Source of the DNA: Ilex aquifolium
Lineage: Eukaryota > Streptophyta > Magnoliopsida > Aquifoliales > Aquifoliaceae
NCBI GenBank assembly: GCA_951799425.1
Contig: OX637394.1
Location: 43,263,642 to 43,327,641, forward strand
Direction: 5' to 3'
DNA: 64,000 bases
The notes below the pieces were generated by a model, which saw nothing but the letters and a program-made list of their open reading frames with translations, had not been told where the DNA came from and did not search any database. Positions within the stretch are counted from its first letter, which is position 1, and the number at the start of each line of letters is the position of its first letter. Below are positions 18,479 through 59,665 of this stretch, piece by piece. Made by a program: the position numbers and the translations under genes.

Positions 18479-18528
18479 GGACCGGTCTATGGTACATTCA
18501 ATTGAATTTTCGGTACGATACCGAAATT
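18479..18528 (+). repeat. Left terminal inverted repeat of the MULE
   Basis: 50 bases matching the inverse of 43595-43644 at 45 positions. The inner half includes TTCGGTACGATACCGAA, a perfect hairpin with a 3-base loop. Similarity stops sharply after this, so the TIR is short compared with classic Mutator. Confidence 0.8.
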
Positions 18529-18689
18529 CAAGGGCCACCATAGATCTATCTAACAAGAAAAGTGAGCCGTTGATTAATATGTCCTTTCAATGTTTTTTTT
18601 TTTTTTTTAATTTCCAAAAATAACCGGTTACCTGTTGGATACCGGTTGGTAGACAAGAGAAGATATTGAAATGACATGTCAGATAGTAC

Positions 18690-20165
18690 ACATGATTACT
18701 AGTAATTTTGTTACATAATGAAAGGAATATTTACAACTTCAATGTATTGTATACCAAATTTGTGGGCATATTTACAACTTCAGTGGTATGTTTAACAAAT
18801 TTGTGGCAATAATTACAATCTCAGTTGTATGTTTACCAAATTTGTAGAAATATTTACAACTTCAATATATAGATTCTTTACGAAATTTATGGGAATATTT
18901 ACAATATGAGTGGATAGTTTACCACATTTGTGTAAATATTTACTATAGTAAATGTTTTGTTACTATAATCAAGATAGTAATTAAGAGAGTTGTCAAATTT
19001 TTTTACGAGATTTGTGAATGTTTTTTACGAGAGTTATACTTAATTTGTAAATAATTTACAAGTAATCGAAGAGTATATACCAGTTTTGTGAACAAAATTA
19101 CTAGTGGAGAGGAGTATTTACTAATTCATTGTTATTTTATACGATATTTAATAGTCCATGATCGATTATTAAATATGATCGATCTATCAGAACACACAGA
19201 TTTTAACTTAATTTATGACTCATCCAAGAAGATATACAACTTCAATGGATCATTTACCACTTTTATTGGAATATTTACAACTTTAATGGATTCTTTATGG
19301 GAATATTTACAACTGTAGTGGATTCTTTACCAAATTTATGTCAATATTTACAACTTCAATGACTTCTTTACGACATTATGGGAATATTACAACTTCAGTG
19401 GATTATTTACCACATTTATGTAAATAATTACTATAGTAAAGGTTTTGTTACTATAATGAAGGTAGTAATTACGAGAGTTGTCTATTCTTTTTTACGAGAT
19501 TTGTGTATTTTTTTTACGAGAGTTGTACTTAATTTGTAAATAATTTACAAGTAATCGAAGAAGATATATCATTTTTGTGGACAAAATTACTAGTGGGGAG
19601 CAGTATTTACTAATTCAATGGTATTTTTAAGATATTTAATAGTCCATGATCGATCATTAAATATGATCGATCGATCAGAACACACAGATTTTAACTTAAT
19701 TTATGAGTAATCCAAGAAGATCTACAACTTCAATGAATCATTTACCACTTTTATGGGAATATTTACAACCAGTGGGGAGCAGTATTTACTAAATCAATGG
19801 TATTTTTTGGGAATATTTAATAGTTCATGATCGATCATATCACGCAGATGTGTGCTTAATTTATGACTAATCTAAGAATATATAGAACTTTAATGGATTA
19901 TTTACCACTTTTTTTGGAATATTTACAACTTCAATGGATTCTTTTTGGGAATATTTACAACTGTAGTGGATTCTTTACCAAAGTTTTGGGAATATTTACA
20001 AGTATAATGGATTTCTTACTACATTGATGGCAATATTTAGAATTCCATGGATTGTTTACGACACTAATGAAAATATTTACAATTGCAATGGATTCTTGAC
20101 CAAATTTGTGGGAATATTTACAAGTGCAATGGATTTTTTACCACATTTAAGACAATATTTACAAC
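18690..20165. repeat. Left arm: degenerate tandem array with higher-order duplication
   Basis: A unit of about 40 bases built on GGGAATATTTACAACTTCAA, then TGGATTCTTTACCA, repeats through the whole stretch. On top of that, 18960-19250 and 19440-19740 are a long direct duplication sharing TTTGTAAATAATTTACAAGT, AATTACTAGTGG and AGTCCATGATCGAT. A third partial copy starts near 19770. Nothing is coding. It corresponds in position to the array at 42400-43500 near the other terminus. Confidence 0.75.
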
Positions 20166-20189
20166 TTCAATGCATTCTCTACAAATCTG

Positions 20190-20895
20190 CAATAACATGA
20201 TCGATCAATATATAGTTTTGATCGATCGAATTCAGTTAATACTTTGATGGATCAAATGTTTTAACGATCGATCATTTCTACTTAGTACTTTTATTACTTC
20301 TGATTCACATTTCAAATCTAGAAAAATAGGATCGATTAATATGTATTTTGTAATGGATCAAATTCCAGTTTTGTACTTATTGATCTATCATTTTTTTATA
20401 CGATCGATCAGACCTCCACAATACTTTTATTACTTCTGATTGAAACTACAGACCTGTGACAATATGATCGATCAGAATATAGGTTTGATCGATCGAATTC
20501 ATTTAATTTAATTTTTTTTAACAGTACACCTTACCACATACTGATCGATCATAAATTTATTCGATCGATCATATATGTAATGGATTATTCGATCACTGAA
20601 TAATGATCGATCGTGTACATATCAACAAGTTAAAGATCGATCAATTATTTATTTGATCGATCGATCAGGTGTATAAATTGGTCACATTCCGAAAGTTAGC
20701 GATCGATCAGTTAGTAATTCGATCTATCATTAACATTTTGCAACTTCATGATCGATCATTTATTTTGCGATAGATCAAGGTAGAGGTGTTGTTGTAGCAG
20801 AAGAATGGTTGTTCAATCACTCATATTAGCGATGTAAATGTGGTAGTTTGAAACTATTCGATCGATCGTATAGGAGTTTGATCGATCATAATTCC
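20190..20895. repeat. Left GATCGATC palindrome cluster
   Basis: About 16 copies of the 8-base palindrome GATCGATC, often as TGATCGATCA or TTCGATCGATC, occur within 700 bases at intervals of roughly 20-60. Random expectation for an 8-base word in 700 bases is about 0.01. A few more copies lie in the adjoining array (19150-19850). The same motif crowds the opposite arm. A role as protein-binding sites is inferred. Confidence 0.85.
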
Positions 20896-21700
20896 TTTTT
20901 TTTTGCCAGGCTGATCCATGTGACGTCGTTTAGTGTTTATTTCTATACCAACCAATCAGGTTGTGACAACTAGCTACACCAGTTCCCTTCTATTTCCTCT
21001 TAATCCCGCCAAAAACCATTACCCAACTCCTTCCATCCTCTAAACATTGAGCTCACTGGTCTCATTTTTCTATCTTCTGAAAAATCACCACTCCCCTATT
21101 CAGCCGATTCCATCTTCTTTGTTCCGAATTCGGTGCCTCCCTCTACATCACAATCTTTTTATTCCTTGCAATATGGGTTTGAGGTCATAAGTATCCCCTT
21201 TCAGTATTCCAAAAGAGGTTTGTTTTAGTCTACGTAGAAGTGTGTACACTCATCCTCATTTGTCTTAGTATCGGCTTGTTGTGATTAACGACCAGGAGGA
21301 GATACATAATAAGGTATCATAAAATTAGAAGTGAATATATGAAATGTTATTTTTTATAAATGGTATGTTTTCAGTGTTTGACATCTCTGTGTGTGTCATA
21401 ATTGCAAACATTTACATACTGGTAATGATGTTATAGTTGTGAATGAATGTGTTGGTGAGTGAGTGTGTTTGAGAAGGATTTCTGAATGGTTTAGAGAAGT
21501 GTATGTGTAGCATATACTTATTTATTTGACCTATAGACGATGTGTTATTTGCAGGGTAGTAGCAAGGTCCTAGACTTGGGAAGTCCAATTTGGCGATTTT
21601 TCTAATGTAAGATATGATTATATTATTGAATTTATTTCAGATTTGTCACATTTCAGACTTCATATTATGGTACATATTCCAGGGGAAAGAAGAGGTCCTA
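20896..21700 (+). promoter_or_regulatory. Upstream region of MULE Ulp1 gene A
   Basis: Between the GATCGATC cluster and the first coding-like exons lies about 800 bases of ordinary composition, including a CT-rich leader-like stretch at 20990-21170. No TATA box can be chosen with confidence. Exons upstream of 21700 are possible but unrecognised. Confidence 0.35.
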
Positions 21701-21702
21701 GA

Positions 21703-24700
21703 AGTCAAAGGCCGAAGGCTTGAAAGCACAACGTCCAGCTGGTGCATGACTATTTTTCTAGTATGAAAAATTTGTGTATTGTAGTGTAAAATTATTTTGT
21801 GGTTAATGTTTATTTGATAATGTACGCATTTGTTGTACTTCCATTACAGTAAGGAACAAATGGAGAATATCAAAGGAAACTCTGATAAAAAAGTCACACG
21901 CGAGGTATAATTTGTGTTACAAAGAGCGAGTATTGTTTGGAATAGTGAAATTAATAATGTATTCCAATTGAACTTGTACTCATAAGGTGATTAAACAACT
22001 GGCTGACCAATGGAGGAAGATGGCAGATAGTGAGAAACAGAAATATAGAGAACTGTCTATACATGCGAAGAGTGAATATGATCGTGTGAAAGATATTTCT
22101 GGGGAAATGACAGTACGGGTAAATATATAATGTCGATGTTAATTTTCACAATTCATCATTTACATTTACTGCACCTCTCCACTGACTTTTCTGTCTATGT
22201 TTTTGACAAATTATCAAAGGGGACGCTTGGTACAAGGTGTTCGCCTGAGAAAATTGTAAAAATGATACGACTTTTATGTGATGAGCAGAAAGCTGCAATA
22301 AAAGAACTTGGTTTTGGGGGGATATTGAGCCTCAAATGTGGGAACTGAAGCGGGGTTTATGTGCATGGTTGATTGAACGGTTCGACACTGTGTCATTGAC
22401 ATTAAATGTGTACAGTGAAGCTATTCAGTTATTAGCCATGGATGTTGAATGTGTCATGGGTTTGAGAAACGAAGGCTTGGACGTGGAGACTATTGGGCCC
22501 AAGGAAAGAATTCATGGCATTTGGAATTCATTGTTCAATGGCGTTAAGGATATTCCGTTGAGACACGTGAGTGAGAGACTTTGTGTACTTAAAGTGGCTT
22601 CGGATGAGTTTAGGATATATTTTGCGCTATTTCTTATTGGACATCTTCTATACCCAATCATGCGTACTTCAATCAGCAACGAGTATCTTCACAGTGTCGT
22701 AGACGTTCCTTCTATAGGAAAGAGAAATTGGGCGAAATTTGTATTTGATGGTATGGTTGAAGGGGTACGAAAATATCAAACACATGATCAGAAAAATGTT
22801 GGTGGATGTTTACTTGTTCTTATGGTAAGGCATCAATATATTTTTTTAGTATTTTTATGTTGTGCTTGTTTCACAATACTTTTACTGAATTCCCTCTTTT
22901 ATTTTTTTAATGTAGATAGTATATCTGGAGCGGGTCACACCCAAAGGGGTGTTTGTTAAACAACCGCCGTGTAAGAGCAACCCTCGAATTGCTGCATGGG
23001 GGGATGAGGAAATTAAGAAACATGTAAGCATGTTGAAGAAGTCCAAACGACTAGCATGTCAAGAAGTTACTTGCAAAGTGTTTGACGACACCATGAATAG
23101 ACCACAACCAGTCACTACAGTAAACCTTAATAAACGATCCACCCATGAAGTGAAGCAACCTATTTTGACATCAGCTGAAAAACCACTGGTACGTATATAC
23201 CATGATACTGAAATCACATTGAATTATAATAGTTTATGACACGTGATTAATTGTGTAAATGTGTAGGAATGGGAGGCCAGAATAGGTAGGATGGAGAATG
23301 CGATTGTTAACCTAACTGGCATGGTGGGGTCAATGGTTAGCATGATGCAAATGTTCATGGGTGGATCGTTTCCTAAACCATCAAATTACCAAGACATAGA
23401 GAATGATGCTGCTGTTGGAGAAGTTGATGAGAAAAAAAAAAAAAATTTGACTTGAATGAATGCGTAAATGCCAATTCCTAGAATGAAGTGGATGTGGACT
23501 ACCGGATTTGGACACCCATTGCCGCTGTCCGCACCCCACCACCAAAACCATTCCAGGAGGCACGACGACTGCCAGTGAATACTAAGAATGACGGTTACAA
23601 AGACAATGACGTTGGTGACATGCAAGAGGCTTCTTACTCATGCACCCAAACATCGTTCCCACTAATGCAGCTAAGAAGAGAGTCTAAATGGAGGCCAAAC
23701 AAATATGTGATTTCACCATATGAACAGCCAAAGGTATAACATACATCCAACTTACTGTATTAATTAATTACATTATACATTATCCTCACTTATATTTTAC
23801 TCCCTTTAACCACAGAATCGTTGGGTGAAGAAGGATGATAACAAAGAGGGCAAGGGGGAGGTGAATAATCCCCCGTATCACATTCAACCAATGGACGATT
23901 CCATGCATAAACATTTAATGCCTAAGGTTCTAACATCATTTATTATTATTATCCAATTTTTTGTACATGTTAATGTTCAAATTCTCTTTGCACAGGGAGG
24001 TTACAACATGAATTGTTATGACAACAAGGCATCGATCGATGTGTACAAGACTCCGCACAATCCTGCTAACAAACTGAAATTGTCTTGTAATAGTGCATCA
24101 GTTGCTGAAATTCATAAGGTCTGTTTTTTTCCATTATTGATTATGTGACAAACTTGAATGGTAGTTTAATGTCACAGATTGGGTAAACAGATTTCAGATT
24201 CTACTTTGGGTATTCCACAACACGTTGAGGAATATGAAAATGTAGACATACTTTATCCTGAAGATAAGCAATTGATTCTGAATTACATATTTGACAAGAA
24301 TCTTGACATTAGGTATCTTTATTTTAAATGTAACCATTGATACAATTTAAAAAATGAATTAATATGTGATAGAAAGTATTTGTATGCTTATTTTCAATTG
24401 TGTAATATTTAATTAATTTTTTTTTTAAAACAGAGAGGATTTAATTAGGTTTGAACATGACCATGCTGGACGCCATTGTCTCATGACACTATTACCAAAG
24501 CAGTGGTTACTTGATTCGGTTGGTTAATTAGGAACAATTTTTTTTTAAAAATGTTATCCATACGTTGGTACCCTAACTTAAACCAATTGCAATTTACTTT
24601 TGTATTTTTCCGATGACTGTCACAGGTTGTGGACTTGGCTCACAATTTGTTATCTAATGCAGATAAGACAAATCCAAAAACTGGGTTAGAGAGGTGGTAT

Positions 24701-25600
24701 CTACCCACGTGGTTCTCGGTAATAAAATTGTGTTTATTTGTAGTACCTAATTTTTTTTAAAAAAAAAAAAATACATACAATATGTTGATTATAATTTTGT
24801 TTGTTGTATTCAGCAACAGGCATTGGCTCGGGCTGGAACGGCTGACAGTACAAGTAAAAAAAGTTTGTTTCAATCTATGTGTGGTGTAAATGAGAAGTAC
24901 ATAAAAGATTTTACATACTGTGACAAGGTGGATATTAACCATATAATTAATCCTTTTTGATTTCAAAGGCCTAACATTAGTTACATTGATCCACGCTTAT
25001 CAACAATATTTGTCTGTGTAAACAAATGTAGATATACATGCCGATCAACGAGAACAACTCCCATTGGTATCTATGCGTCATTGACGTAACTGAACAGAAA
25101 GTTCTTTTGTTGGACCCGCTTCCTGGTGACGATATTTTTATTCGGCTGAATGTTGTGCATAATGTGCTATTTGAATTAGATGATGTGTTTGAAGCTACAC
25201 AGGATAACTACCAACCTTATTTGGGAACATTCACTTTGTTCGCCCCGGCTTGGGCCCCATGTCAGGGGACTGCATATGATTGTGGAATGTTTGTTGTCAA
25301 GATGATACTGTCTCCAGTGCTTTGTCCAGGCTTTACCATTAAGGTGAACTATGTAACATGCAACCTATGACATGTCGCGATTGTATCATTTCATAATTTG
25401 TTTATATCCCTCCTCAAAGCTCAATAAGTTAACCACTTGGTATCATTTTATCGCAGGAAGATTCGAATGCAATGAGGATGAACTTCGCTTTTTCATTAGC
25501 TACTCACGCTGACAACAAAGTTCGGAACAAACTCATACATAAAGCCCGAGAACGAGGGATAGAAACAGGAAAATGTAGAAGTATATTAGCAGGAATGTGA
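21703..25600 (+). pseudogene. MULE gene A: HMG-box-like exons, plant RCSP domain, Ulp1 (C48) protease
   Basis: A multi-exon gene with many good GT-AG junctions. An HMG-box-like segment (KAQRPAGA at ~21703-21745; VIKQLADQWRKMADSEKQKY from 21987) precedes the conserved plant mobile-gene block (TRCSPEKIV at 22230; LKRGLCAWLIERFD from 22342). Next come IVYLERVTPKG (22915), a short coiled segment (23268), basic linkers, and the protease exon 25033-25342. That exon shows the C48 catalytic set: His in NSHWYLCVID (25062), Asp in LLLDPL (25113), Gln (25263) and Cys in YDCGMF (25281). It ends at a TGA, 25598-25600. Ulp1-type proteases cleave SUMO; here it is an accessory gene of a MULE. Breaks seen are a one-base shift near 22336, a shift in an A-run near 23440, and an in-frame TAG at 23480. 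Otherwise it is well preserved. Its paralogue is gene B at 28800-32075. Confidence 0.8.
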
Positions 25601-26285: not shown

Positions 26286-26881
26286 GGGACATAGCACAAG
26301 AAGAAATCGTAGCTGTTCTGGTCTATCTGTCTGTAATGAAAAAGTTTGCAGTGGTTTTGAAGTGAGTCAAGTCATTCCGTGTGAATACTTGAAACGCGTC
26401 TCGTTGGATGCGGAGAAACACGTGTTGTTAAATGTTAGTGACCTAAATAGATATTGACACCGATATAAGTGACCTAAAGAGAGCTTGACACCGATGCTTC
26501 GCTGCCCAACCAGTGGCACATGCATTAAGATGCACAATTGCAGCATGCCAACATTCACACCAAACATCCCGCTCAAATGTGTTACTAGCTAAAGACAAAT
26601 GCATTGATTTCCAGCATATCAGCAGCCATGTGTGACACATGAATTTATCAATTTCATCTGCCTTACCATTGTCATAATGGACCGGCTATAAATATGTCCA
26701 AATCACCTGAATTAATCCTCCCTTAATTTATCTCTTATAAAGAATTTAGGGTTTAGAAAGGAAAATCATATCCAAATATGAAACAACTCCCACCCTCCCT
26801 CCTGCTGGGAGGACCAGAAGGGTGTAACAAAGGAAAAAGAAATTGCATTATTTTTTTTTAAAAAAAAAATCAAAATTAAAA
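26286..26881. other. Unassigned DNA between gene A and a LINE
   Basis: Minus-strand open frames at 26367-26640 contain ERDVWCECWHAAIVHL, which reads like protein but which I cannot place; it might be another captured fragment. The rest is unremarkable. Confidence 0.3.
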
Positions 26882-27610
26882 TTTTTTTTTTTTGAAAAAG
26901 AAAAAATTTTATTAATTAAACTCCAAAATTACAAGAATCAAAAAACCAGTAACTGTTACAACAGAAACCAGTAACTGTTACAACAGAAAACAGTTACAAC
27001 TTCACCAAAACAAGCAAACTGTTACAATCAAAACAGTTAACAAATTCCTGTACAGCTGCTGCAGTTCAGATCATCAGCATACTAGCACCCTCCTTCTGTA
27101 CAACAGACCTTGATGCAGATTCTGATGTAGAAACAGACTGGCAGTACTGGCATCCAGAAACCAACACTCCAATACCCCTCCACAGATCAGCTCCTACCTC
27201 ACTCACCAGAGGACATCAGACCAAAATAACCTCAGCCCAAAAGCACTTCCCCTATCAAGACCTCTAACCAGGTCTTGAATCCACAGAAAAAACCTGATGG
27301 CCATTTAACACAACCTCCTCCTTCTTACAGTAGGCCTGAGTTGTATCTTGCTGCAAAAGCATTCTTCCAGCCAATGGCAGAATACCAGCAGTTGGAAAAA
27401 CACTAAAGCCACCAGACTTAACTGCCAAATAAGCCAAAAAAATTCAACTACAGCATTAGCCTCCCCGTACACATGTCTACACTGAAACTACAAATTACTA
27501 AGAAACTCCCCACTCTCATCCATAACTCCTTTCAACCTCCAAAACACTTCAGCATGCCCTCACATCTTCATATCTTCTCCTACACCTTTCTTTCCAAATG
27601 GCCCAAAAAA
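26882..27610 (-). mobile_element. 5'-truncated L1 LINE with RNase H tail
   Basis: On the minus strand a coding-like tail reading FQCRHVYGEANAVV (about 27460-27500) precedes a 3' region that ends in TTTAATTAATAAAATTTTTT and an A-run (T-run at 26882-26893). HVYxEANAVA is the C-terminal motif of the RNase H domain in plant L1 ORF2. Everything upstream of this is missing, as expected from incomplete reverse transcription. Confidence 0.65.
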
Positions 27611-27824
27611 ATCAACATGGAAACCCCAAAAAAAAAAAAAAATTTCTAAACATTAACTAAATCATAAGTATAGCAGAAAGTGCACTACCGAAATGACGCC
27701 CAAAAACTAAAGATAAAATGAAAAATAATTTACAGGAACAAACAAAGAAGGGAGAATAACAACACTATTCACAAAACCTAACTACAGCACTGTTCACAAA
27801 AATTAATTTCCCTACAACTTGGCT

Positions 27825-28365
27825 CAGAAACCATTAACGCGTTGTTTTGGAACACCACCATATCTTCCAGGTGTGACATTGCCACTTCCATAAGCTGGAG
27901 GAACATTACTACCAGGACAATATCTCGCCCAATGCCCAAATTTGTTGCATTTGAAGCACTCACCAGATGCACCACCACTAGCACCTCCCCTCCAGGACAC
28001 CCAGTCATATGAAGCTACCTCCATATGACTGTCCCTCACCATTAATAACACTCGGTCTGTTCACACCTATCTCATCGCCACTTAAAATCTCCATTATTTG
28101 TAACCTTCTTGTTGCACTACCGATCTCCAATGATGATGGGACATGCAGTGCAGCAAAAATGAAATTGTTACTGTGGGATTGAGCTGTCATCCTCATAGCA
28201 AGGCTCCACCGTTGATGTACTTTCCATGAAAATTTCATGATCATTACGAAGGTGATTGCAAGCTTTCTTAGCAGGTTTCAGGCTCCCATTGGAGATCATA
28301 TGCACTTTACCAAACTCAATCTGGTGGTAGAATTGGTCGGCCACAGCATTAAAACAGCTTCCTTA
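27825..28365 (-). pseudogene. Captured fragment of a replication protein A large subunit (RPA1) gene
   Basis: Minus-strand translation gives three pieces of RPA70 in the right order. First is DBD-B-like FNAVADQFYHQIEFGKVHMI, SNGSLKPAKKACNHL and PCYEDDSSIPQ (28355-28175). Second is the zinc-finger region CPIIIGDR, CNKKVTNNGDFKWR and DRCEQ (about 28140-28065). Third is the plant-type C-terminal zinc knuckle CFKCNKFGHWARYC (about 27960-27915). Large parts between the pieces are absent, and stops interrupt the second (a TAG where the family has Gln, and a TGA). RPA1 binds single-stranded DNA in replication and repair; this copy cannot. Its place beyond the 3' end of gene B suggests capture by the MULE. 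Helitrons also carry RPA-like genes, so Helitron origin is the alternative. Confidence 0.75.
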
Positions 28366-28799: not shown

Positions 28800-31700
28800 T
28801 CAAGGTGTGTGTAGTGCCATATGTATGATTCTATCTCTCAACTTGTTCTCCTCAGCGGTGACCAAGTTAATAGCCACCTCCGTTCGAATATCTTTACTCC
28901 TATCCTGCATTTAACAAATGTGAACCATTACACATAACACTTTTTTTTATTGTAGTATTATTAAAGATATTAAGCAATGTCGGCACAGACTGTTTATTGT
29001 TATTCACTTTTACTATAAAACCTTGCCCCAAATGTGATGATTGCATTATCGTCACAACGAAAATTCCGCAATCAAAACCATTGTCTTGTTTGGGCATCCA
29101 GGCAGGTTTAACAACCTTTCACGTGCCCAATTTGTGTTTCTAATCGGGAGCCCTAGTTGCAAGAATGTCGTCCAAAACCTCAATCTACAAAATAAGTTTG
29201 GAATGTAATTGGCCAAATACAAAAATATCTTGACAGGTATCATTTGCTAAATGAAAACAATAAGTATCTTACAACTCTATTCGCATTTGTGCGTCGAATA
29301 TTGTTTCTTTTTGGATTTGGTAGAGGATCGAGTGTGAATGTTTGTTTCTCCTGTATATCCACCAATACTAGATACCAATGTGATTTTTCATCGTTTATTG
29401 GGATATAAATCTACATACAAACAGACAATTATTCATAATATAGACTAACTTAAAAACAATTAGAAAACGAATTAAATCAATATAGACTACCTTCGTAGTT
29501 GTTGTAAAATCAGGGAGTGGGAGGCGACTAAACTTACGTTTTTTTTTAGTTACCCTTGCACCCTGACTGCGGGTGATGCTGCTTGACATGGCTTATTGCT
29601 GCATTGCCATGGCTTGTTGCTGCATACATTCACGAACAGACACCCATTAATTTTTTTGTCACATGACCCGAACTTTTTATTGCATAATGCAACTAAAAAT
29701 TTTGAATAAATGAAAACATGTACTTACAGAGAAGACGGTAGGTAAGTACCATCGTCCCGTTTGCGGCGCGATGCAGGCACACATATCAATTACCTAATAA
29801 CATTGTTTACATGATATTTTAGTTTCATTCTCATAAGGATGAACAATAAAAGCAACAAAATTAACATTCACGAACAATTCCACTCAGCCATTTGTTTGGG
29901 GCAAGGGTCTGTAACACCTCCCTCGTGCCTCGAGCATGGTCACCAACTGATACCATACGCTCACTATACATAAACAAAACACATTAATTTTATGCGCGGG
30001 TGCATTGGAAAACGATACAACTAGCAGTTGTTAAGCATAACATATAGCGTCAAATATAAGGTACACCGGCACATACTCAGATGACAAGTTTTTGTCAAAT
30101 ATGTAAATGTAGATTGTGCGCTCCACATCATCATCGATATGGGTTATTCTTGGGAACACCACATCTGCTATCTACAACGCAATTTTGCTTATAAGGGTTC
30201 AAAATGACACTCACCTGAAAACACATGTTGAATTTTTAATACAAAAATCAATATATCATACTTTATCTGGTTGGTATCCCTCTACAGCTTCTGGATCATC
30301 CAAATCAACCTACAATATAAAGTTCGCATTTGTCAGTTCACGTTAACAAGTCAGCAGTAATAGATGTGGTAATACATTGAACAACACATTTAAGGTTTCA
30401 CCAGTACAACGGATAATATACACACCTTCGTCAAATCAATTTCATCTTCTTCGTTTTTTCCCCCCATGTCATGTGGGACATCCTTCGCAGTCCCCGATTT
30501 ATCAAGAAATTGGGACACAAGCTGTCCTATCTCACCCAGTCGTTTCTCCATCACAGACAAAGAAGTTGTGCAGTGTGATGCAAAAGTATCAAACTTTTTT
30601 TCCATGCGATCTGCCAGAACCTCAAGTCTTCCAATTCTTATCCGCAAATCCTAAAAACAATATACGTAATAATTTACAGTACAGTCAAATATTTGCAGCC
30701 AAAAATTAGGCTTATTTGGGAAATATATACATTATACATGGTAAATTTACATACGTTCGACACTGCTTGCTGGGATGCAGTACCAAGTGCATCATCAATG
30801 ATCTCCTCCTCAATACAAACATCCAACTACATACATAAAATGAATGGAATATGCGCGTCAAATACTATGTAAGACAATATCATACAATAGTGCATATGAA
30901 AAAAAATAAAATTTATAAAATGTATACCTCGTCCAGATTGAACCCGCCTAACTGCAAGATATCATTCATTTTTTTACTGACATCGCTGTCACCCCACTCT
31001 CCAATTCGGGGGACATCATGAAAAACCAAAGGAATGATGGTTTGACCTCTCGGTGTAACTCGTTCAAGATAGACAACCTACATACAAAAGAAACTGAAGA
31101 CCATAACACACTATTTACCCTTGGTATACAACATACACATTAACAAACACGTCCCGTATAAGTACATTACCATCAGAACTACAAGACAACCACCCAATGA
31201 TCCCTGACCGGATGCTTGAAATTTTGTAATGCCTTCGATGACTCCATCAAATACAAACTTGCACCAATTAGTATGTCGTAATGAAGGCACATCAACAACA
31301 GAGTGTAATGCAGGAACACTTAGCGTTGTTCGCATTGTTGGATGAAGCATACAAGCAATAATATATAAAACAGACAGCCGTATAAAATCGTCAGAGGCAT
31401 CTGTGATTGAACTAAGGCGCTCCGACAAATGTTTCAAAGATACCTCCGATTGTCCGTTAAATATAGACGTACAAAGATCCTGAATGCTGTCCTTCGTACC
31501 CGTTGTCACCACATTTGTCCCTAAAAATTGCAAACCTAGTATGTAGGTGACATCTTTGGGGCTGAACTTCGCCCATTTCCCATACAAGTTGAAAGCACAC
31601 CGCTGGGGATCAAATCGTCCAGCCAACCAAGCACACAAATCATGCCTGATATATGTGCATCCTATGTTGAGCAATCCTCCCAAGCCAATTTCGATGATGA

Positions 31701-32075: not shown

Positions 32076-33531
32076 TTATTGGATTAGATTTGATTATAAA
32101 TGGAATGTACACAGCAAGCAAAATATCACAGGATATCGCGAAAAATGGTAAATGAGACCTAATATAAGAAGATTCATGTTCACGATTTGGGTACATTCAA
32201 CATCTAAATGATAGTGTACTAATGAACATCTACTCAATGCCTGAAAAAATCATGAATTACGGCCAAAACAACTTTAATTACTGTCTTTGTGAAATGCACT
32301 AATTGCAAAAACCCAAAAACATCTGATCGATCGAATTTTGTACGAACAATGGACAAATTAAATTTTGATCGATATCACTCAAGATTTGATCTGTAATAAA
32401 CAAGAATAACCATCATAAACAACATTAAATTTTTAAGAGGTTGAAAGCATGCTATAATACTCGTTCTGTATGTCACAAATATATACTATGACAGAAAATA
32501 ACCCGTGCCGGAAGGCACTGGCCGATTCAAAAAATTCGAGCATTGATCATGGACAGTAAAATACAAGTCAATAACTCGTGCCTGAAGTAACTGTGTAAAT
32601 CAAAAAATTTTGATACTCATAGTATAATATCCCAAATATATTCAAGTAGAAGAAATGCAATTATTTCGAATCGAAAGATACACAATCTAATTATTCACAC
32701 CTAAAGTAACCTAGAGTGATGCAATTACCAAATCAATTCAAGTAGAAGAAATGCAATTTCCAATCCAAAAACTTGAATCGAATCTAAAATAACTACAAAG
32801 TTTCCACCAAAATAAAAAATGAAGTACTTAAAAAATTCATTGAACTTTATCAACTCAAATTAAAATTACATCTAATCAAACTAAGTTCACCTAAAGTAAT
32901 TGTAATATTCGCATCAAATTAAACATTTATCAAACTGACTTCACAAAATTCAAAATTGTGTGGGTGTGTTATGTGTGTGTGTGCGGCAACTTCATAACAG
33001 AGGGTTTGGGGTAAGGGTGTGTGTTGTATTTTGTGGGTATTGTTTGGGGGAGGGTTGTGCAGGGGGGTTAGAGAGAGGGGTGGTTCGTCGAGAGAGTGTG
33101 TGTGTGTTGTGTTCTGTGGGTATTGTTTGGGGGGTGGGTTGCGCACACAGAGAAGAGGGAAGGGGTGGTACTGCGAGTGTATGTGTGTGTTGGGAGTTGT
33201 GGGTACTGTTTGGGAGTGGGTTACGCAGACGGGGAAGATGGAGGGGTTTCACAGAAAGGGGAAAGCTTGTTGTTGTAGGAGGGGGGTTGCGTGCGTGTGT
33301 GAGAGAAAAGGAGAGAAGAGGAAGAATTACTTGGGAGGGCTGTGGCGGTGAATCTGACAGTGATTGACGGTGAGAGAGAAGGTCGAATGTTATAGTTGTG
33401 TGGGGCTGTGGTGATGGCAGATTGCCGTTGCCGAAAAGGGCAACAAACCCGTCAAATTGCTGTGGACAGAGAGAGGGAAGAGGGAAGAGAGATAGAAGGA
33501 AAAAGAGAACGGGTTTTGAAAATGTCAGTTC

Positions 33532-33571
<40 letters not shown>

Positions 33572-34759: not shown

Positions 34760-37544
34760 TTGACGAATAAAATGGCTCATACTAGCTTTGAGAAGGGAAA
34801 GCATGTCGTTATAGACTTGAATGAAGCACCTGAAGATAGTGATATGTTTGAGTTTGCCACATGTAATGGTGAATATGGGCATCGTAAGGAAAAATCGGAA
34901 GCTGTCGAAATTGGAAAAAATTTACAAGACTTATCGGCTGAAGAAGTAAGTCACATGAAGTTTAACTTGGAAGCTGAAGCGGGTAATTTTTATAACACAT
35001 ACGCTAAATTTGTAGGTTTCAGCGTCAGGAAAGATGACTTAAAATATGATAAAAACCACGTCCCAGTGGTAAGGAAGTGAGTATATTCGCGACAAGGGTT
35101 TCGAGCTGAAAAATACTTACCTCGGGATGACATGGCACGGGAACCAAGGGGAATAACTCGAGTTGGTTGTTTGGCAGTATTCCGCGTTAAGTATGACAGA
35201 AAGTCGAAAAAATGGGTAGTAAAGGAGTTCGTGAATGAGCATAATCATCCGTTGGTTCCACCGAGTAGAGTGCCGTTCCTTCGGTCCCACCGCCGTGTGA
35301 AAAGCCCAGACATAGAGCAAGCAACATCACTTCGCAGTGTTGGAATACGCACTAGTCAAATACGAGATTTTATGTTGCATCAAGCTGGCGGGTACCAAAA
35401 TGTTGGCTTTACGCGAAAGATTTGTACAACGCTGTTGCAAGCCAAAGAAGAGAAGAAATGATCGATGGAGATGCTGAAGGTGCACTAGCATACTTGAGCG
35501 CGAAAGAGGAGTTAGATCCATTATTTTATTTTAGGTACATCGTTGAAGATGATAATTCATTGAATTGCCTGTTTTGGGCGGATTCAACTTCCCGTGTTGA
35601 CTATTCATGTTTCGGTGATGTTTTGGTATTCGATCCAACATACCGCACCAATGCGTACAAAAAGCCATTTGTCATTCTTGCAGGTGTAAACAACCACAAC
35701 GCTACTTGCATTTTGGGATGTGCATTACTTTCATATGAGACAGTGGGCACATATGTGTGGGTGTTGGAGACATTTATGGATGCAATGGATAATAAAAAGC
35801 CTATATCAGTTGTCACCGATGGGGACAAGGCCATGGCCGCCGCAATCGAAAGAATTTTTTCACATGCAAAACACAGACTATGCAGCTAGTATTTGGAGAG
35901 AAATGTGCTTCAAAATATTCATGCTGAAATTTTTTTTCGCGAGTTCAAGAACTGTATGTGCTCTCGATGTACACCTGAGGAATTTGACGTTATGTGAGAA
36001 TCAATGGTACATTCATTTGGGCTGGAGGATAACAACTGGATATCAGATGTGCACACAAAGCGTTGGAAATGGGCTGAAGCATTCTTGCGGGGTCATTTCT
36101 TTAGCGGCATCAAAAGCACGCAACGCTCAGAAAGCTTGAATGGTTACTTGAATCGTTTCCTGAAAACAAGGCTTCGTTTGTATGAGTTTGTTAAACAGTA
36201 TGATAGGGGTGTCTCAAGACTCCGAGAGACCGAAGCCTATGACAACCATTATTTTGAAAACAGTACACCAGTGTTGACCCTCACACTACGCTGCTTAGAG
36301 CAGCACGCTGCCTCACTGTGTACCAGGTCAATTTTTTTTTAAAGTGCGGGATCATATAATGGCCGAAGGACTCTTCTTCGTGGTCCAAAAAATTCAGCAC
36401 AGTAGTCATTCAAGTTATTATCTGTCGAAGTACACAAAACCAACATCCAGTTGGAATGTGATATATGATTATCAGAATCACACCATCAAATGCAATTGTC
36501 TGAAATTACAATCTGTTGGACATCCTTGCTCACACATCATTACAGTTTTAAAAACTGAACACATAACAGAGTTCCCTCCTAGTACTATTATAAAGCGTTG
36601 GACAATTACTGCAAAATCAGCTTGCCCACCGACATCTGTGCCTCAAACGTCAAGAACCATTTCAATTTCTTGCCGATATGTTGGATTAATGTCAATGTGT
36701 GTGAGATCCTGGTTCCCACATCGGTGAGGGAGAGGGAGTTGCTGGGCTTTATAAGTAAGCCCTTGCCTAAATTTGGTAGACGCGTTTTCCCAGGGTCAAC
36801 TGGGAGGAACAAATCCGTGCGGCCCGGTGGGTCAGTGGCCAGTGGGGCCAGAGCGGACAATATCTACCAAGGGGAGGGGGTGTTACAAGTTTGGTATCAG
36901 AGTCGACTCTCCCCGGTTAGCCGAGGGTGGGGCCCTGCACGGGGACGTGCAGCCCTAAGGGGGGTGGGTTGTGAGATCCTGGTTCCCACATCGGTGAGGG
37001 AGAGGGAGTTGCTGGGCTTTATAAGTAAGCCCTCGCCTAAATTTGGTAGACGCGTTTTCCCAGGGTCAACTGGGAGGAACAAATCTGTGCGGCCCGGTGG
37101 GCCAGCGGCCAGTGGGGCCAGAGCGGACAATATCTACCAAGGGGAGGGGGTGTTACAATGTGTAGCCGGATGTGTTACTACGCAACACATTTGCCTGACG
37201 ACACACAAGAGCTTCGAACAACAATAACTGCATTAACCAACCGCATGAAACAACATCATGATACATGCGAGTCAAGACAGGTGTCATCATCACATTACAA
37301 AGATAATGACACTGTGTCGAACATAAAATTTGGTGTCGTCGATCCCAAGACAGTGACAACTAAAGACAATCCGGGCCGTGTACGGAAGAACCTACCAATA
37401 GCTCCGCGACGATGTAGTAAATGTCGTGGCACTGGACATACTATTCGTAAGTGTCCGCAGCTTACGTGCAATGCGGACGACCCACATGATGACATGCCCT
37501 TCTCACAACCTGGTGGCTCCCAACAACCCATGTCATCAACTTAA
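34760..37544 (+). pseudogene. FAR1/FRS-type MULE transposase (MURA-like), decayed, with a TRIM inside
   Basis: Domains appear in the canonical order. A FAR1 DNA-binding region runs from AGNFYNTYAKFVGFSVRKDD (34980) to WVVKEFVNEHNHPL (35215). The DDE transposase core follows, with Asp in VFDPTYRTNAYKKPF (35632) and Asp in VVTDGDKAMAAAI (35818). Then RSESLNGYLNRFLKTR (36125), a SWIM finger with CNC and CSH (36490-36535), IIKRWT (36590), and a CCHC knuckle CSKCRGTGHTIRKC (37415) before the stop at 37544. Damage: TGA at 35078, TAG at 35887 and TGA at 35996; one-base shifts near 35415, at a T-run near 36335, and possibly others. A 458-bp TRIM sits between the KRWT region and the zinc knuckle. This is probably the transposase that once mobilised the 25-kb element; a captured host FRS gene is the alternative. 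Confidence 0.8.
36700..37157. mobile_element. TRIM (miniature LTR retrotransposon), looks whole
   Basis: Two 188-bp direct LTRs lie at 36700-36887 and 36970-37157. Both start TGTGAGATCCTGG and end GTGTTACA. A 5-bp target duplication, ATGTG, sits at 36695-36699 and 37158-37162. After the first LTR comes TGGTATCAGAG, the usual initiator-Met tRNA primer site; before the second is a purine tract, AAGGGGGGTGGGT. The 82-bp interior codes for nothing, as is normal for TRIMs, which depend on other elements. The LTRs differ at 4 of 188 sites, all C/T changes. At a commonly used plant rate this suggests under about one million years. It interrupts the MULE transposase gene. Confidence 0.95.
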
Positions 37545-37685: not shown

Positions 37686-38732
37686 CAAGTGATATACTGG
37701 AGAGGGTACAGGGTGAGTTGGATGAAACATTGAGGCGTGAAGAGATATACTGGAGGCAGAAAGCCAATTTGCGATGGGCTGTTGAGGGAGAGACAAAGGC
37801 TGTTGAGGGGCACTAGATGATGAGAATGGAAAAGAATTCTTCAGTGCTTTGCAGATTCACCTTTCTCGTAAGGTGAAAGTTAAATGTAGATGGGTACAAT
37901 GGAGGAGCCCAGGGGTTGGATCATTGAAGCTTAATACAGACGGGGCTTCCAAGACAAACCCAGGGATTGCAGGGGGAGGAGCAGTGGTGCGTAATGAATG
38001 GGGTGGCATTGTTGTGACTGCCTCCTTTTTTTATGGTGAGTGCTCTAACATGATTGCGGAATTTAGAGCATTGTGCAATGGATTTAAGTTTGTTTTGGCA
38101 TATGGTTTGACTTGTTGCAGGTTTGAAATTGAATGTGATTCATTGATTTTGGTGAATGCTGTTCTGGGTATTTGTGACTGTCCTTGGACATGTTTGAGCT
38201 AATTTGAGACAGATCAGCGGCTACTTGAGGGGTCAGGATTATAGCTTGGTGCATATTGTTCGTGAGGCGAATGCTGTGGCTGATAGTCTTGCTGGGCATG
38301 CGGTAAAGAGTAGGAATTTGGTTGATTTTTCGATGGGTTTGAGATTGCATTGTGATGTTAGCTTGGTTCTGTCATCTGATCAACAGAGTCTCCCTGTTTT
38401 GAGAAAAAGAAAGAGGGTGGTCTTCGATGATCAGGGGTAATAGGAGCTGCTGCTGGAGCTTTTTGTCTTGGATGATTAAGTGTTGATTTGTTTGAAATAA
38501 GGGGAAAAGATAAAAAGCTCTTTATTGTTGATATGTGCTTATGGATTTGGACTGTGATGGGGATTTTTGCTGAAACTTTAGAGTTTAATGTTGTGTATTT
38601 TTGGCTTTGCATTGTTAGTTTTGCCTTTTACAGGTTATGGATGGGCATCTGTGCCTTTTCCTTTGTTTCTTGTAAATAGTGTGCATTACGAATAAATAAA
38701 ATTCCCTTTTGATTAAAAAAGGGAAAAAAAAA
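37686..38732 (+). mobile_element. L1 LINE 3' part with RNase H domain, internally shortened
   Basis: A piece of the ORF2 linker, ELDETLRREEIYWRQKA (about 37710-37765), is followed shortly by an RNase H domain. That domain starts at GSLKLNTDGASKTNPGIAGG (37918), continues with FEIECDSL, and closes with LVHIVREANAVADSLAG (38240-38290). The 3' region ends in an A-rich tail at about 38732. The reverse transcriptase between linker and RNase H is missing. A stop near 38200 splits the RNase H frame. It follows the stop of the MULE transposase gene by about 140 bases. Confidence 0.75.
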
Positions 38733-39004
38733 GATCTCTACTTTTGATTCAATTGTGCACAGGCAGTAAATTAATACTTCTTTAAACATTTTGGAGGTGA
38801 GTACGACTACATGTGCTTTTGTCATTGCCTTCAGTTATTTGGTACAAACTATTCCACGATTTTATTATCATACTGCACTGAATACTTCTTGCAGTGTTAA
38901 CGTCTACACATCTGGCCACTGAAATATTCTGGGATAATCACCCGTTTGCTCTACGGCAGCTGACCACACAATGTAGCTTTCTTAAGTTGCATGGAAGGTT
39001 CAAC
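38733..39004. other. Short spacer between two LINE insertions
   Basis: Probably original MULE DNA. EIFWDNHPFALRQLTT can be read near 38920-38970, but I recognise no family. Confidence 0.3.
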
Positions 39005-39960
39005 TTTTTTTTTTAGAAAAAGGGGAAAATTTATTGATCGAAGAAGTAATTACAAGAAGCAAAGAACAAACAGTTCTACAAAATTCAAAAATGACTTTAA
39101 TCCTTCAAGATGATTAAAACCATTTTAAGCTACAAAATTGTGTCTTCTGATCTTCAGTCCAGCTCCTGAACTCCCAGACAGCTCCCCAGATCAGAAACAA
39201 ACCAGTACAGCACCCATGCAGTCCCAGCTGGTTTGCTATGTACCCAAACTAAGCTCCCGCACCTTTGCTCACAGCCCAGCTCACAACATCAGTCTGCCAG
39301 AATAGCAGACAGTTACTGAAACAAAGCAAAACAGCAAACCAGTCCAGCATCCAAGCATAAAGACCACAATCACCCTCCACATCAGCATCCCAGCAGCTAT
39401 CTTCAAAGTCAATCCAGCAGAAAAGACAAAATTCATTAGAAACAGATCAATGCAATCCAGTTCAGATAAAAAACCAAGACTCAGCTCTATACACCAACTG
39501 CCCAGACAGTCTGCCAGAATATAGATCATCACAAAAGTTGGCTTTAATCCTTCAAAAGGATCAAAGCAACTTATCCTCCTACCACAAACAAGACCCCATG
39601 CTCAGCACAGTATCAACCCAGACACAGGCTAGACCAATCAGATCAACTGCCCAGTCTTCCATCAAGCATTCTAACCTCTCCTCCATCATCCAACTCCTTG
39701 CCTTTGGTCACAAACCACAAGTCTCCTTTTCCTTGCAGTAGTCAGTCCAAACTGATCCTGATGAAGAATCAATCTGCCAGACACATGCAGACTGCTATGA
39801 GAAGATAACTCAGTACATGCTCCGGTCTGAACAGCAAAAGAGGCCAAAAAATCAGCTACAACATGTCAACGTTTCTAACTACTAGCCAATATATTTAACA
39901 ACCATCCACCCAACATCTACAACAACCTTGCCAAAATGCCAAATATTACTATACAACAAA
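39005..39960 (-). mobile_element. 5'-truncated L1 LINE 3' end
   Basis: A T-run at 39005-39014 followed by AGAAAAAGGGGAAAATTTAT is the reverse of a LINE 3' tail. At the far end the minus strand reads HVVADFLASFAVQTGACTEL (about 39870-39815), the closing part of an L1 RNase H domain. The intervening 800 bases are 3' untranslated region. It is related to the pieces at 25895 and 26882. Confidence 0.6.
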
Positions 39961-39991
39961 AGATTCACCAAAAAAACACAAAACCAATGTG

Positions 39992-41083
39992 TCATTTGTT
40001 GATGTACTCTTTAAAGTCCTTATAAAAACAATCTAATTTTGACTCCAGACGGTGTAACGACCCCTTCGTTTCATCCTCGAACTTTTCAAATCTGGCCTCC
40101 AACTTTTCAACCATTTGCTGAAGTGTTTGTTGAACCTCAGTAGTACCAACATCAGAACCACCTTGACTAGTCCCAGCTTGACTACCCACAACCTCAGACA
40201 CCGCTGATGGCTGCTTTACACGCTTGCCCCGTTGCACACCCAAAATCGCTCCCACACTTTTATTAAGTGTACCCATACCCATTGCATTCATGGGGTACAT
40301 ATAATTGTTATTCTGCTGAAATTCAACCCCACTATGCTTCAAAATCTTGGAAATTAATATTGGAAATGGAAGACATGGCATGCAATCCTCGACGGTAGAT
40401 GCTTCGCAAACATGGTTGAATATGTAAAGGGGTAGATCAATAATAACCCCATGTTCACCAATAGCATATAATAGTTGGGCCGTATCGTATCCAATCTCAG
40501 CAGTATGCCCCCTCGGATGAATATTAATGGCAACAATTCGGTTTATCATCCTAAACGTTGGAGTAAGGTCAATGTGAAGAATTTTGCTTTTCTCATTCTC
40601 CCAAGGGACACTCCCAATACAAATATGTTGAATAACCGTCGTCATTTCGGGAACCTGCTCCTTACTTGAGTATGGAAAGACAATGGAATTCTCAGGAATG
40701 ACTGGTCTATCAATTTTTATTATATTTGAGATAAGATCAGGCGAAACAGTTATGAATTTCTTCCTAACCATTGTCTTAAATGTCAGCTCATTCTCTTTGT
40801 AGTCATGAATATTTGCATAAAAAAACTTAACCAGATCAACATATGCTTTATCTTCCACATTCATTTCAAATAGAGGATCCTATTTTCGAGCCCGGAGTAT
40901 TTCAGGGCAATCCACACTTCCTACTAGCTCATCTAGGTAAACACCACGCTCAAGTATAAGAGGACGTTTAAGAATGAATGTATCATACATCTTCTTAGCA
41001 TCTTTATCCACAAAGAGTTTCGCTTTGCCAGCACTCCCCCCGCTAGCCACCTTCTTCCGTTTCTTCGTCTCTTCGCCCGACAT
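39992..41083 (-). CDS. Putative plant transposon protein (gene C)
   Basis: The reading frame starts MSGEETKKRKKVASGG at 41083 and runs to a stop at 39992. One TAG at 40880 interrupts it just before DPLFEMNVEDKAYVDLVKFF, where relatives usually have a Trp; the downstream 290 codons are open from 40864. The N-terminal part (KKMYDTFILKRPLILERGV) and the core (VDLVKFFYANIHDY, SKILHIDLTPTFRMINRIVA, GYDTAQLLYAIGEHGVIIDL, FPILISKILKHSGV) follow the pattern of the domain annotated in plants as putative plant transposon protein. The C-terminus has a predicted coiled coil (VQQTLQQMVEKLEARFEKFE). Function is unknown. It lies just inside the right repeat arm of the MULE, transcribed away from it. Confidence 0.7.
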
Positions 41084-41110
41084 CAACAAAGCTCCAAATG
41101 GAAATTTCAC

Positions 41111-41540
41111 TCTTCTTCAACAAAGATTCACAACGAACATTCACGATGTAAATTTCACTCTTCTCCGAATGAAGATTCACAATGGATTATTCACAATGGA
41201 AGATTCACAATGGAAGTAGTGTGTGTAGGCCATCGCATTTGTGTACCCGGTCGCATGAAAGGGATTTGGGGTGGTTGGCGATTTAGGGTTTATGGAATTG
41301 GGAGATTTTGATTGCGTTTTGTAGGATTTGGAATGGATTTGGAATGAGTTTTTGTTTGTGTAGAGGATTTGGAATGGATTTTGAATGGCTTCGGTTGGTG
41401 CGAGTGATTTAGGGCTAATTTCATGCGATTTGGGGATTTATTTGTGGATACTACGATGTTAATTTACTACAAAGCCCCCTTACAACGCTTCAATTAATTC
41501 CTCTTTGAGGGCATTTAAGTAAATACATCATAACTGATCT
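41111..41540 (-). promoter_or_regulatory. Upstream region of gene C
   Basis: 41110-41215 has repeated GATTCACAA words (several imperfect copies); 41290-41450 is rich in GATTTGGAATGG repeats. Both are non-coding and fit a leader or promoter by position only. Confidence 0.35.
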
Positions 41541-41554
41541 ATCATATTTATTTT

Positions 41555-42420
41555 CGATCGATCGCAATCCCACTTGCCCCTTTAGCTTCTTCCTCAATAA
41601 CTCAATGATCAATCATTAAACATATTTGATCGATCAGATGTCCCCAGTACTTATGATCTACAGCAATTTGATCGATCAAAATAAATATCTGATCGATCAG
41701 ATGTCCCCATTACTTATGAGTTATGATCTGGAACAATTTGATCGATTAATATAAATATTTGATCGATCTAATTAACTGACTACATACTGATCTATCATAT
41801 TTTTAAAACGATCGATCAAATCTCCCCAATATTTCTTTTACTTCTGATTCACATTATAAATCTGCAACAATTTGATTGATCAATATATCATTCTGATCGA
41901 TCGATTTCAATTACAACTGACTGATCTATCCAATTTTTTTACCGATCGATCAAATATCCCCAGTGATTATTCACATTACAAATCTGCAATACCATGATCG
42001 ATCAATATATATTTTTGATCGATCGAATTCACTTACTAAATCGATCGATCAAAATTTTAAACTATCAATCATTTCTCCCCAGTACTTTATTACTTCTGAT
42101 TCGCTTTCAAATCTGCAACAATACGATCGATCAATAAGTATTATTTGATCGATCAAATTCACTTACTACTTACTGATCTATCTTATTTTGTACACGATCG
42201 ATTAGACCTCCACAGAACTATTATGACTTCTGATTCAAACTACAGACCTGTAACAGTATGATCGATCACCATATACATCTGATCGATCGAATTCAATTAC
42301 TTTTCCTTTTTTTCCCCACACCTTAGCACATACTAATCGATCATACATTTATTCAATCGATCATTATGTACTGATCGATCATATATTACATTGATCGATG
42401 ATCCATTTCATTGTCTAAAA
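41555..42420. repeat. Right GATCGATC palindrome cluster
   Basis: More than 20 copies of GATCGATC or one-base variants occur here, commonly as paired sites 15-30 bases apart, with recurring spacers such as CCCCAGTACTT and ACTTCTGATTCA. The same spacers occur around 20280-20450 on the left, so the two clusters are related beyond the palindrome itself. The arrangement mirrors 20190-20895 relative to the other terminus. Confidence 0.85.
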
Positions 42421-43500
42421 GTATGTTAACCTCGTAAATTTATCTACTATGGTTGTTAGTATGTCTTTATTTTTGTATCTGTTCCAATTACTATTGTACA
42501 TTTATCACTGATGTAGTAAATACTCCATTGCCTTTGTAGTTGGTTCCACTGATATTCAAAATTTCTTACTCTTGTTGTAATTATACAATTCATTTTGTAC
42601 TTTGTCTATTAATATCTTTAACTTCCCAATAATTTTGTAAAAACACCTTATTGTGCCAATATGATCGATCATTCATATTCGTGATCGGTCAAATTATATA
42701 TATTTTTTATTTTTTTCCTAAAAATTCCTTTTTCTTAACCCCACTCCTTACCACATATTGATCGATCATATGTTTATTAGATCGATCAATATGTAATGAT
42801 CGATCCATTAAGTTGACTATAAGTATATTATCCTCGTTAATTTATCCACTATGGTTGTAAATATGTCTTTAATTTTGTATCTATCCCAACTACTATTGTA
42901 CATTTTCTACTAATGTAGTAAATACTCCATTGCCTTTGTAGTAGGTTCCACTGATTTTCAAAATTTCTCACTCTTGATGCAATTATACCATTCACTTTGT
43001 ACTTTGCCCACTAAATATCGTTAACCTCGCAATAATTTTGTTAAAAATACCTTATTGAGTCAATATGATCGATCATTCATATTCGTGATCGGTCAAATTA
43101 TATATTTATTTATTTATTTTCCAAAAATCCCATTTTCTTACGCAACACCTTACCACATAATGATCGATCATACATTTATTCGATCGATCAATATGTTATG
43201 ATCGATCATATATTACATTGATCGATCATCCATTATATTGACCACGAGTATGTTATCCTCATAAATTTTTCCACTTTTGTTGTAAATTTACTTTTACTTT
43301 TGTACCTATCCCATTACTTTTGTACATTTCTTACTGATATCGTAAATACACAATTACCCTTGTACTTAATACCATTATCTTTGTTATTGTACCCATTGTT
43401 GTTGTAAATCTTGCAAGTGATATTGTAAATATTCCATAATCTTCGTAACTCACTCATTGCTGTGGTAAGCCTTCATCCATCATTGTTGTACAGTATAAGA
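42400..43500. repeat. Right arm: ~410-bp higher-order tandem repeat with GATCGATC sites
   Basis: 42400-42795 and 42796-43210 are direct copies sharing AATACTCCATTGCCTTTGTA, CCTTATTG, CATATTCGTGATCGGTCAAA and flanking GATCGATC sites. A third partial copy runs to about 43480. Read on the minus strand the words resemble the TTTACAACTTCAATGG units of the left arm. Non-coding. Confidence 0.75.
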
Positions 43501-43594
43501 GCCAACAAGTCATTCCGGTTGCTTTGCTTTACCTTTACACGTGTCCATTTTTGCATCATTGGGTAGTGATTTTTTCAGCTTTTAGCCCCCAAAG

Positions 43595-43644
43595 ATTTTC
43601 GGTATAGTACCGAAAATTCAATTGGATGTACCGTAGACTGGTCC
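43595..43644 (-). repeat. Right terminal inverted repeat of the MULE
   Basis: Inverse of 18479-18528 with five mismatches over 50 bases. It ends in CTGGTCC, followed directly by CTCTAGGAG. Confidence 0.8.

Positions 43645-59630: not shown

Positions 59631-59665
<35 letters not shown>

Follow-up and report, generated by a model that had tools for sequence, protein, structure and literature searches.

Mutator-like elements (MULEs) duplicate 8–11 bp of their target on insertion, typically 9 bp in plants, and terminal inverted repeats (TIRs) are absent in some of them (PMC6446971, PMC2528002). ULP sequences have been reported in the Jittery-like MULEs of melon and of some grapevine families, lying downstream of the transposase in grapevine; the two multi-copy grapevine Jittery families, Jitvine-1 and Jitvine-2, measure 11.9 and 14.4 kb, Table 4 of the same source leaves unmarked which grapevine Jittery family has the ULP sequence, and the largest of the grapevine MULE families listed there reaches 17.7 kb (PMC2528002). 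In the VANDAL elements of Arabidopsis, DUF1985 is found in the VANC proteins, one of which, VANC21, binds to a short motif that forms arrays in non-coding DNA (PMC5735166), and VANC proteins that bind such motifs induce a loss of methylation (PMC5735166, PMC10398659). The name KIU is used in a review for VANC genes that include an Ulp1 domain (PMC13317346), and one Arabidopsis gene is annotated as an Ulp1 family member with DUF1985 (PMC5821449). In the current study, we describe a locus in holly, Ilex aquifolium, that combines features of these systems. Within the window, that is, the whole stretch of 64,000 nucleotides analysed (contig OX637394.1, positions 43,263,642 to 43,327,641), positions 18479–43644 very probably represent a defective TIR-bearing MULE with a FAR1-type (Jittery/Hop-like) transposase, which measured about 22–23.7 kb before nested insertions and entered a dispersed repeat as one unit. 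Its boundaries, and the related site that lacks it, are as follows:

18470–18478, + strand: left copy of the target-site duplication (TSD), CTGTAGGAG, 8/9 identical to the right copy
18479–18528, + strand: left TIR, 50 bp, 45/50 identical to the right TIR
43595–43644, − strand: right TIR, 50 bp, pairing with the left TIR at 45/50
43645–43653, + strand: right copy of the TSD, CTCTAGGAG, 8/9 identical to the left copy
12328–12550, + strand: related empty site, another copy of the repeat that the element entered, which both flanks match in order and strand

The element spans 25,166 bp between its inverted termini, which are bordered by the 9-bp duplication, and both features can be read directly and are those of a MULE. 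When the whole window was scanned for inverted 50-mers with 42/50 or more matches, flanks that are not homologous, and an adjacent duplication of at least 8/9, a single pair passed (18479–18528/43595–43644), and the same scan passed 0 pairs in 20 Markov shuffles of the window. With the duplication condition removed, 101 position pairs passed, and the ten that were printed all fall in one inverted repeat near 5.9/60.1 kb. The TIRs proposed in an earlier note on this DNA are thus borne out by alignment and by the scan, and its 9-bp-type duplication holds as 9 bp with eight matches; an alternative reading of 11 versus 9 bp was set aside in favour of 9 bp with a single mismatch (CTGTAGGAG / CTCTAGGAG). 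Palindromes lie within both termini (18497–18526 and 43597–43626), namely TTCAATTGAA, imperfect on the right, and TTTCGGTA-3 nt-TACCGAAA, and could possibly represent a putative dimer binding site.

The flanking DNA points to a single insertion. Bases 1–135 of the left 150-bp flank match 12328–12461 (E 5.5e-36) and bases 20–56 of the right 150-bp flank match 12514–12550 (E 6.3e-10) in the same strand and order, and the joined flanks align through the junction to this copy, just as expected from the earlier claim that the flanks are halves of one repeat. Because the two flank matches are separated by 25 bp in the joined target but by 52 bp in the copy, the empty-site copy supports one insertion and leaves the exact edge unfixed; that edge, as predicted here, rests on the TIRs and the duplication. 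The receiving repeat (11901–12461 compared with 15518–18463) itself seems to be split by other stretches, at 15786–17411 and 17486–18326, which suggests repeated insertion at that place.

Between the termini lie four gene units and two pieces of other genes:

21972–22127, + strand: half an HMG box (profile positions 30–63 of 69), directly upstream of gene A; Pfam HMG_box, E 8e-6
22285–25367, + strand: gene A, with a DUF1985-like stretch (22342–22827) and an Ulp1/C48 domain (25032–25367); Pfam, exon limits provisional
27827–28362, − strand: RPA1 (RPA70) fragment, comprising a stretch of DNA-binding domain A and a CCHC knuckle; PDB RPA70 match and zf-CCHC
28903–31926, − strand: gene B, a paralogue of A, with a DUF1985-like stretch (31156–31701) and Ulp1 pieces at 29243–29410 and 28903–29118
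34772–37541, + strand: gene C, a FAR1-MULE-SWIM-(CCHC) transposase pseudogene; Pfam and three-frame reading
39995–41116, − strand: gene D, a Transposase_32 protein (PF20167, E 1.4e-24) with one in-frame stop (40880–40882)

Of the 172 open reading frames (ORFs) of at least 50 amino acids inside the element, 29 were compared with Pfam, as were four ORFs outside it. The MULE domain of gene C (PF10551, E 5.6e-22) passes the Pfam cut-off and assigns the element to the Mutator superfamily; its FAR1 domain (E 2.4e-11) passes as well, and is accompanied by SWIM (E 1.5e-4) and by a zf-CCHC match that falls below the cut-off (E 0.0077). Gene C thus shows the arrangement that characterizes the Jittery group, that is, a FAR1 N-terminus with a SWIM or CCHC C-terminus. 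FAR1 is tabulated for Jittery and for half of the plant Hop group, with VANDAL unlisted (PMC6446971, Table 1), so that the FAR1-type N-terminus would argue against a VANDAL-group transposase, while SWIM plus CCHC would be compatible with one. The copy is now dead: a reading of the three frames shows the transposase to be apparently disrupted by three in-frame stops and two frameshifts, besides being interrupted by the insertion of a terminal-repeat retrotransposon in miniature (TRIM) described below.

The C48 domain passes the Pfam cut-off in gene A (E 1.2e-12); in gene B it is found at E 4e-9 on 29243–29410 and, below the cut-off, at E 0.009 on 28903–29118. In both genes, the DUF1985-like ORF and C48 occur on the same strand and in the same order as read from the ORFs, and their joining into one protein is presumed. 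The C48 domain of gene A could be aligned to yeast Ulp1 (1euv, E 0.0051) with the His, Asp, Gln, and Cys positions in line, which we take to be the catalytic positions of the yeast enzyme; gene B retains SHWYL and DCGIF, and gene A shows an apparent frameshift between its first two pieces. The two proteins share 43% identity over 172 amino acids (E 7.7e-50). Across 157 codons, identity amounts to 0.60, 0.70, and 0.40 at the three codon positions, with a nonsynonymous divergence (dN) of 0.48 and a saturated synonymous divergence (dS), which suggests that A and B were constrained during most of their divergence. No sign of kinship between A/B and gene D emerged from profile comparison, a weak test with a two-sequence profile. 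Likewise, no confirmed relative was found in viral contigs searched with the DUF1985-like alignment, the transposase ORF, the exact TIR pattern, and gene D, or in prokaryotic genomes searched with the DUF1985-like alignment, as expected for plant DNA.

These results largely agree with the gene content recognized in the earlier note. Its three kinds of plant-transposon genes stand, with MULE, FAR1, C48 (A and B), and Transposase_32 all passing Pfam cut-offs, as do its two SUMO-protease-like paralogues. The RPA1 fragment is upheld by a match to RPA70 in PDB (E 2e-7 on 28171–28362), next to a zf-CCHC match (E 1.2e-4 on 27827–28060) that presumably represents the CCHC knuckle of plant RPA1. The HMG-box-like segment is real as a match, yet amounts to half a box only.

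The outer parts of the element consist of motif arrays:

18724–20180, + strand: left outer array, tandem units of about 41 bp with the consensus ATATTTACAACTTCAATGGATTCTTT; Tandem Repeats Finder
19177–20887, no strand assigned: left GATCGATC array, 21 sites
41556–43227, no strand assigned: right GATCGATC array, 25 sites
42400–43470, − strand: right outer array, a related motif in mirrored orientation; matrix hits and arm-to-arm matches

The arms, which had been described beforehand as motif-dense, are so by count, with 46 copies of GATCGATC as well as a second, mirrored motif. These 46 copies occupy 4.7 kb of arms, compared with two in the other 59.3 kb, the distribution being 21 in 18479–21000, 25 in 41500–43644, one in the 20.5-kb interior, and one in the 38.8 kb outside; in shuffled arms (100 shuffles each) the means were 0.05 (left) and 0.13 (right), with a maximum of 1. 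By these counts GATCGATC is a short motif packed densely into tandem repeats of non-coding DNA, as in the VANC system. On each side, its sites cover about 1.7 kb. The exact outer motif ATTTACAA occurs 16 times forward and twice in reverse in the left arm, and zero times forward and four times in reverse in the right arm. A matrix built from the 16 left-arm sites, for which the left-arm count is therefore partly circular, gave 23 forward and no reverse sites in the outer left arm, no forward and six reverse ones in the outer right arm (200 shuffles gave a mean of 0.06 and a maximum of 1), one site in the interior, and two outside the element. Together with the local matches of one outer arm to the other (E up to 1), of which 71 of 84 are inverted and 13 direct, these orientations indicate that the outer arrays mirror each other, while a part of the inner block (20180–20582 and 41977–42373) is 83% identical in direct orientation. 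In the arms, the ratio of observed to expected CpG reaches 1.07 and 1.25, compared with 0.59 for the interior and 0.70 for the DNA outside. The motif CpGs are little decayed, with 46 intact copies of GATCGATC versus two deaminated ones; the two commonest other single variants number nine and eight. On the reverse strand, the left-arm motif (18724–20180) reads AGTTGTA in common with the published VANC6 motif AGTTGTAC, a likeness of seven bases that is possibly due to chance.

Several later insertions have enlarged the element:

36700–37157, + strand: nested TRIM, with two long terminal repeats (LTRs), a short centre, and the 5-bp duplication ATGTG
37700–38733, + strand: 3′ end of a nested long interspersed nuclear element (LINE), start approximate; RVT_3 E 2e-9 and an A-rich tail
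39000–39870, − strand: putative LINE-like 3′ end, limits approximate; poly-T start and resemblance by eye
26880–27640, − strand: putative LINE-like 3′ end, limits approximate; poly-T start

The 458-bp TRIM, which splits gene C, has two LTRs of about 188 bp that differ from each other in four places, a centre of 81–82 bp containing TGGTATCAGAG, which we take to be a primer-binding site, and ATGTG/ATGTG flanks, that is, the short LTRs, tiny centre, and 5-bp TSD that characterize these retrotransposons. A reading of this GC-rich insert in the transposase as a pair of short interspersed nuclear elements was rejected on the basis of the LTR-like ends, the centre resembling a primer-binding site, and the duplication. 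The divergence of the LTRs (Kimura two-parameter distance 0.022) suggests an age of roughly 0.8–1.5 million years at plant rates. Pfam gave no match on 39689–39865, within the LINE-like stretch 39000–39870, and a search for TSDs around the LINE-like pieces found none for 37700–38733 and 39000–39870 and A-rich candidates only for 26880–27640. The net size is about 23.7 kb after removal of the TRIM and the LINE end, and about 22 kb after removal of all four pieces. Of the earlier proposal that the block moved as one 25-kb unit, the single Mutator-like unit with boundaries at 18479 and 43644 therefore survives, but 25 kb does not survive as the size that moved, since the TRIM and the LINE end came later. 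The interior also contains a minisatellite at 33017–33247, and a stretch at 33990–34169 matches 44707–44884 in inverted orientation (68%); both are possibly further nested insertions.

Compared with the Jittery-like MULEs of grapevine and melon, the holly element similarly joins a Jittery-type transposase and an Ulp1-like gene in one large element (PMC2528002). The Jitvine families are smaller, and their TIR and TSD columns are blank, whereas a 50-bp TIR and a 9-bp TSD are found here; two Ulp1 paralogues, Transposase_32, and motif-dense arms, all present in holly, go unmentioned for the Jittery-like elements in the sections of that source drawn on here (PMC2528002). Mutavine-18 (16.2 kb, with ULP and a 230–263-bp TIR) and Mutavine-1 (17.7 kb) are likewise large TIR-MULEs, but are classed as MuDR-like rather than Jittery-like and are smaller than about 22 kb (PMC2528002). 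The Jittery group 36 shares the FAR1 N-terminus, the SWIM or CCHC C-terminus, and a TIR range (39–292 bp) that includes the one found here; its entry in Table 1 gives one ORF and a TSD of “Not indicated/8 bp”, in contrast to the 9-bp TSD in holly (PMC6446971). With the Arabidopsis VANDAL and Kaonashi (KIU) elements, the holly element shares dense tandem motifs in non-coding DNA and a 9-bp TSD, and its DUF1985-like stretches and Ulp1 domains may correspond to the DUF1985 of VANC and the Ulp1 domain of KIU (PMC5735166, PMC13317346, PMC6446971). Those elements are described as non-TIR or as having degenerate TIRs, although 46–174 bp are tabulated for them (PMC6446971), which sets them apart from the clear 50-bp TIR (90%) of the holly element; FAR1 is not listed for the VANDAL group in the same table, whereas the holly transposase has it, and the published VANC motifs are YAGTATTAY and AGTTGTMC (PMC5735166), as opposed to GATCGATC in holly. 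The Ulp1-bearing Kaonashi and VANDAL MULEs cited in the earlier note find a likeness in the Ulp1 genes, which resemble Kaonashi, and probably not in the transposase, whose FAR1 domain would point to Jittery/Hop. As in Pack-MULEs, pieces of host genes are carried inside (the RPA1 fragment and the half HMG box), but here they lie beside the transposase gene instead of replacing it. Relative to the elements compared here, the holly element is larger and adds a second Ulp1 paralogue, Transposase_32, and two-part arrays; Ulp1 in Jittery-like MULEs was already known.

By analogy with MULE biology, the transposase would have paired both ends and moved the whole block. We further propose, tentatively and holding the scheme as a whole to be less likely than not, that the DUF1985-like/Ulp1 proteins A and B acted as anti-silencing factors of the VANC/KIU type by binding the motif arrays of the arms, that the bound proteins would have kept the non-coding DNA of the element unmethylated, and that the protease domain may have stripped SUMO from silencing proteins. 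The presence of two paralogues and two arrays invites a putative one-to-one pairing. Taken furthest, the element would be a Jittery-lineage TIR-MULE with two-part, sequence-specific anti-silencing, its two diverged and selectively maintained DUF1985-Ulp1 proteins being matched to the mirrored TTTACAA and the palindromic GATCGATC arrays, a reading that we consider unlikely.

The anti-silencing step, and that step alone, is rivalled by an explanation that we place only a little short of an even chance, namely that the arms are old, long, decayed TIRs with subterminal transposase sites, and that the Ulp1 genes are unlinked to the arrays, being involved in SUMO biology or carried as passengers. 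Such TIRs account for the mirrored outer array, with 71 of 84 matches inverted and 23 forward sites on the left (partly circular) facing six reverse ones on the right, as well as the VANC model does, and Ulp1 regions are found in CACTA elements as well as in MULEs of both kinds, TIR-bearing and TIR-less (PMC2528002), so that they need match no particular arrays. The part of the inner GATCGATC block that lies in direct orientation at 83% identity is explained less well, as a decayed TIR would not predict it. Moreover, with a span of about 1.7 kb on each side, the GATCGATC sites extend more widely than transposase sites usually do. It is quite improbable that the block is instead a nest of elements in which the TIR pair derives from one and part of the gene set, such as gene A, B, or D, from others inserted into it. 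The TRIM and the LINE end do lie inside, the gene set is unusually rich, and A and B are oppositely oriented; however, when the window was compared with itself (matches from 40 bp upwards, E up to 1e-4), none of the genes inside the element proved to be enclosed by another inverted pair, and the TIR and TSD scan passes no second pair. Within 21000–41500, no inverted pair is longer than the one formed by the Ulp1 homology of A and B, and of 25 pairs listed among the 100 shorter ones many are A/T-rich. An inner element with short or absent TIRs may still be compatible with these scans. The one mismatch in the duplication and the mere 90% identity of the TIRs could hint at coincidence or an assembly artefact, an idea that is barely credible given the 0/20 shuffles, the related empty site, and the MULE gene content and mirrored arms between the termini.

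Returning to the favoured explanation of a single TIR-MULE with possible VANC-type functions, several results weigh against it. The DUF1985 matches score 16.9 bits in A and 21.5 bits in B, both below the cut-off of 35.1, and AlphaFold models of the DUF1985-like pair and of the Transposase_32 domain were uninformative (mean predicted local distance difference test scores of 37.6 and 35.0, respectively). SWIM plus CCHC is listed for the VANDAL group too (PMC6446971), so the domain set leaves the lineage of the transposase unsettled. Without the motif, the CpG ratios of the arms drop to 0.77 and 0.76, near the value of 0.70 outside the element, which indicates that their CpG excess derives largely from the motif, and the low decay of the motif can also result from recent expansion or conversion of the arrays. 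The VANC21 motif is reported in one orientation (PMC5735166), whereas GATCGATC is a palindrome.

Elsewhere in the window, inverted repeat copies at 5901–7078 and 58021–60078 match in two pieces at 72% and 83%, and the latter copy adjoins fragments of a Ty3/gypsy-type polyprotein at 60088–62082 (− strand). Pieces of a MATE-type transporter gene lie upstream of the element at 7466–8682 (MatE, E 7.4e-27 on 8023–8682). The stretches 19–657, 2520–3495, 45646–46573, and 47325–49518 form two sets of related direct repeats about 43–47 kb apart, one being an AT-rich module (77%) and the other long arrays of CCA type. Searches with Rfam, at gathering scores, and with ARAGORN gave no hits.

The holly element suggests that a TIR-MULE can move as one piece even at about 22 kb and with four gene units. 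The VANDALs of Arabidopsis are a worked-out case of transposon-encoded escape from silencing, and an element with a different type of transposase, clear TIRs, two DUF1985-Ulp1 paralogues, and two arrays would show whether this anti-silencing strategy is more general. It would also open to testing what the Ulp1 domain does, a role described as unknown in a 2026 review (PMC13317346). If the two-part reading were true, VANC-like modules with SUMO-protease domains would have been exchanged between distant MULE lineages, letting such elements exceed 20 kb.

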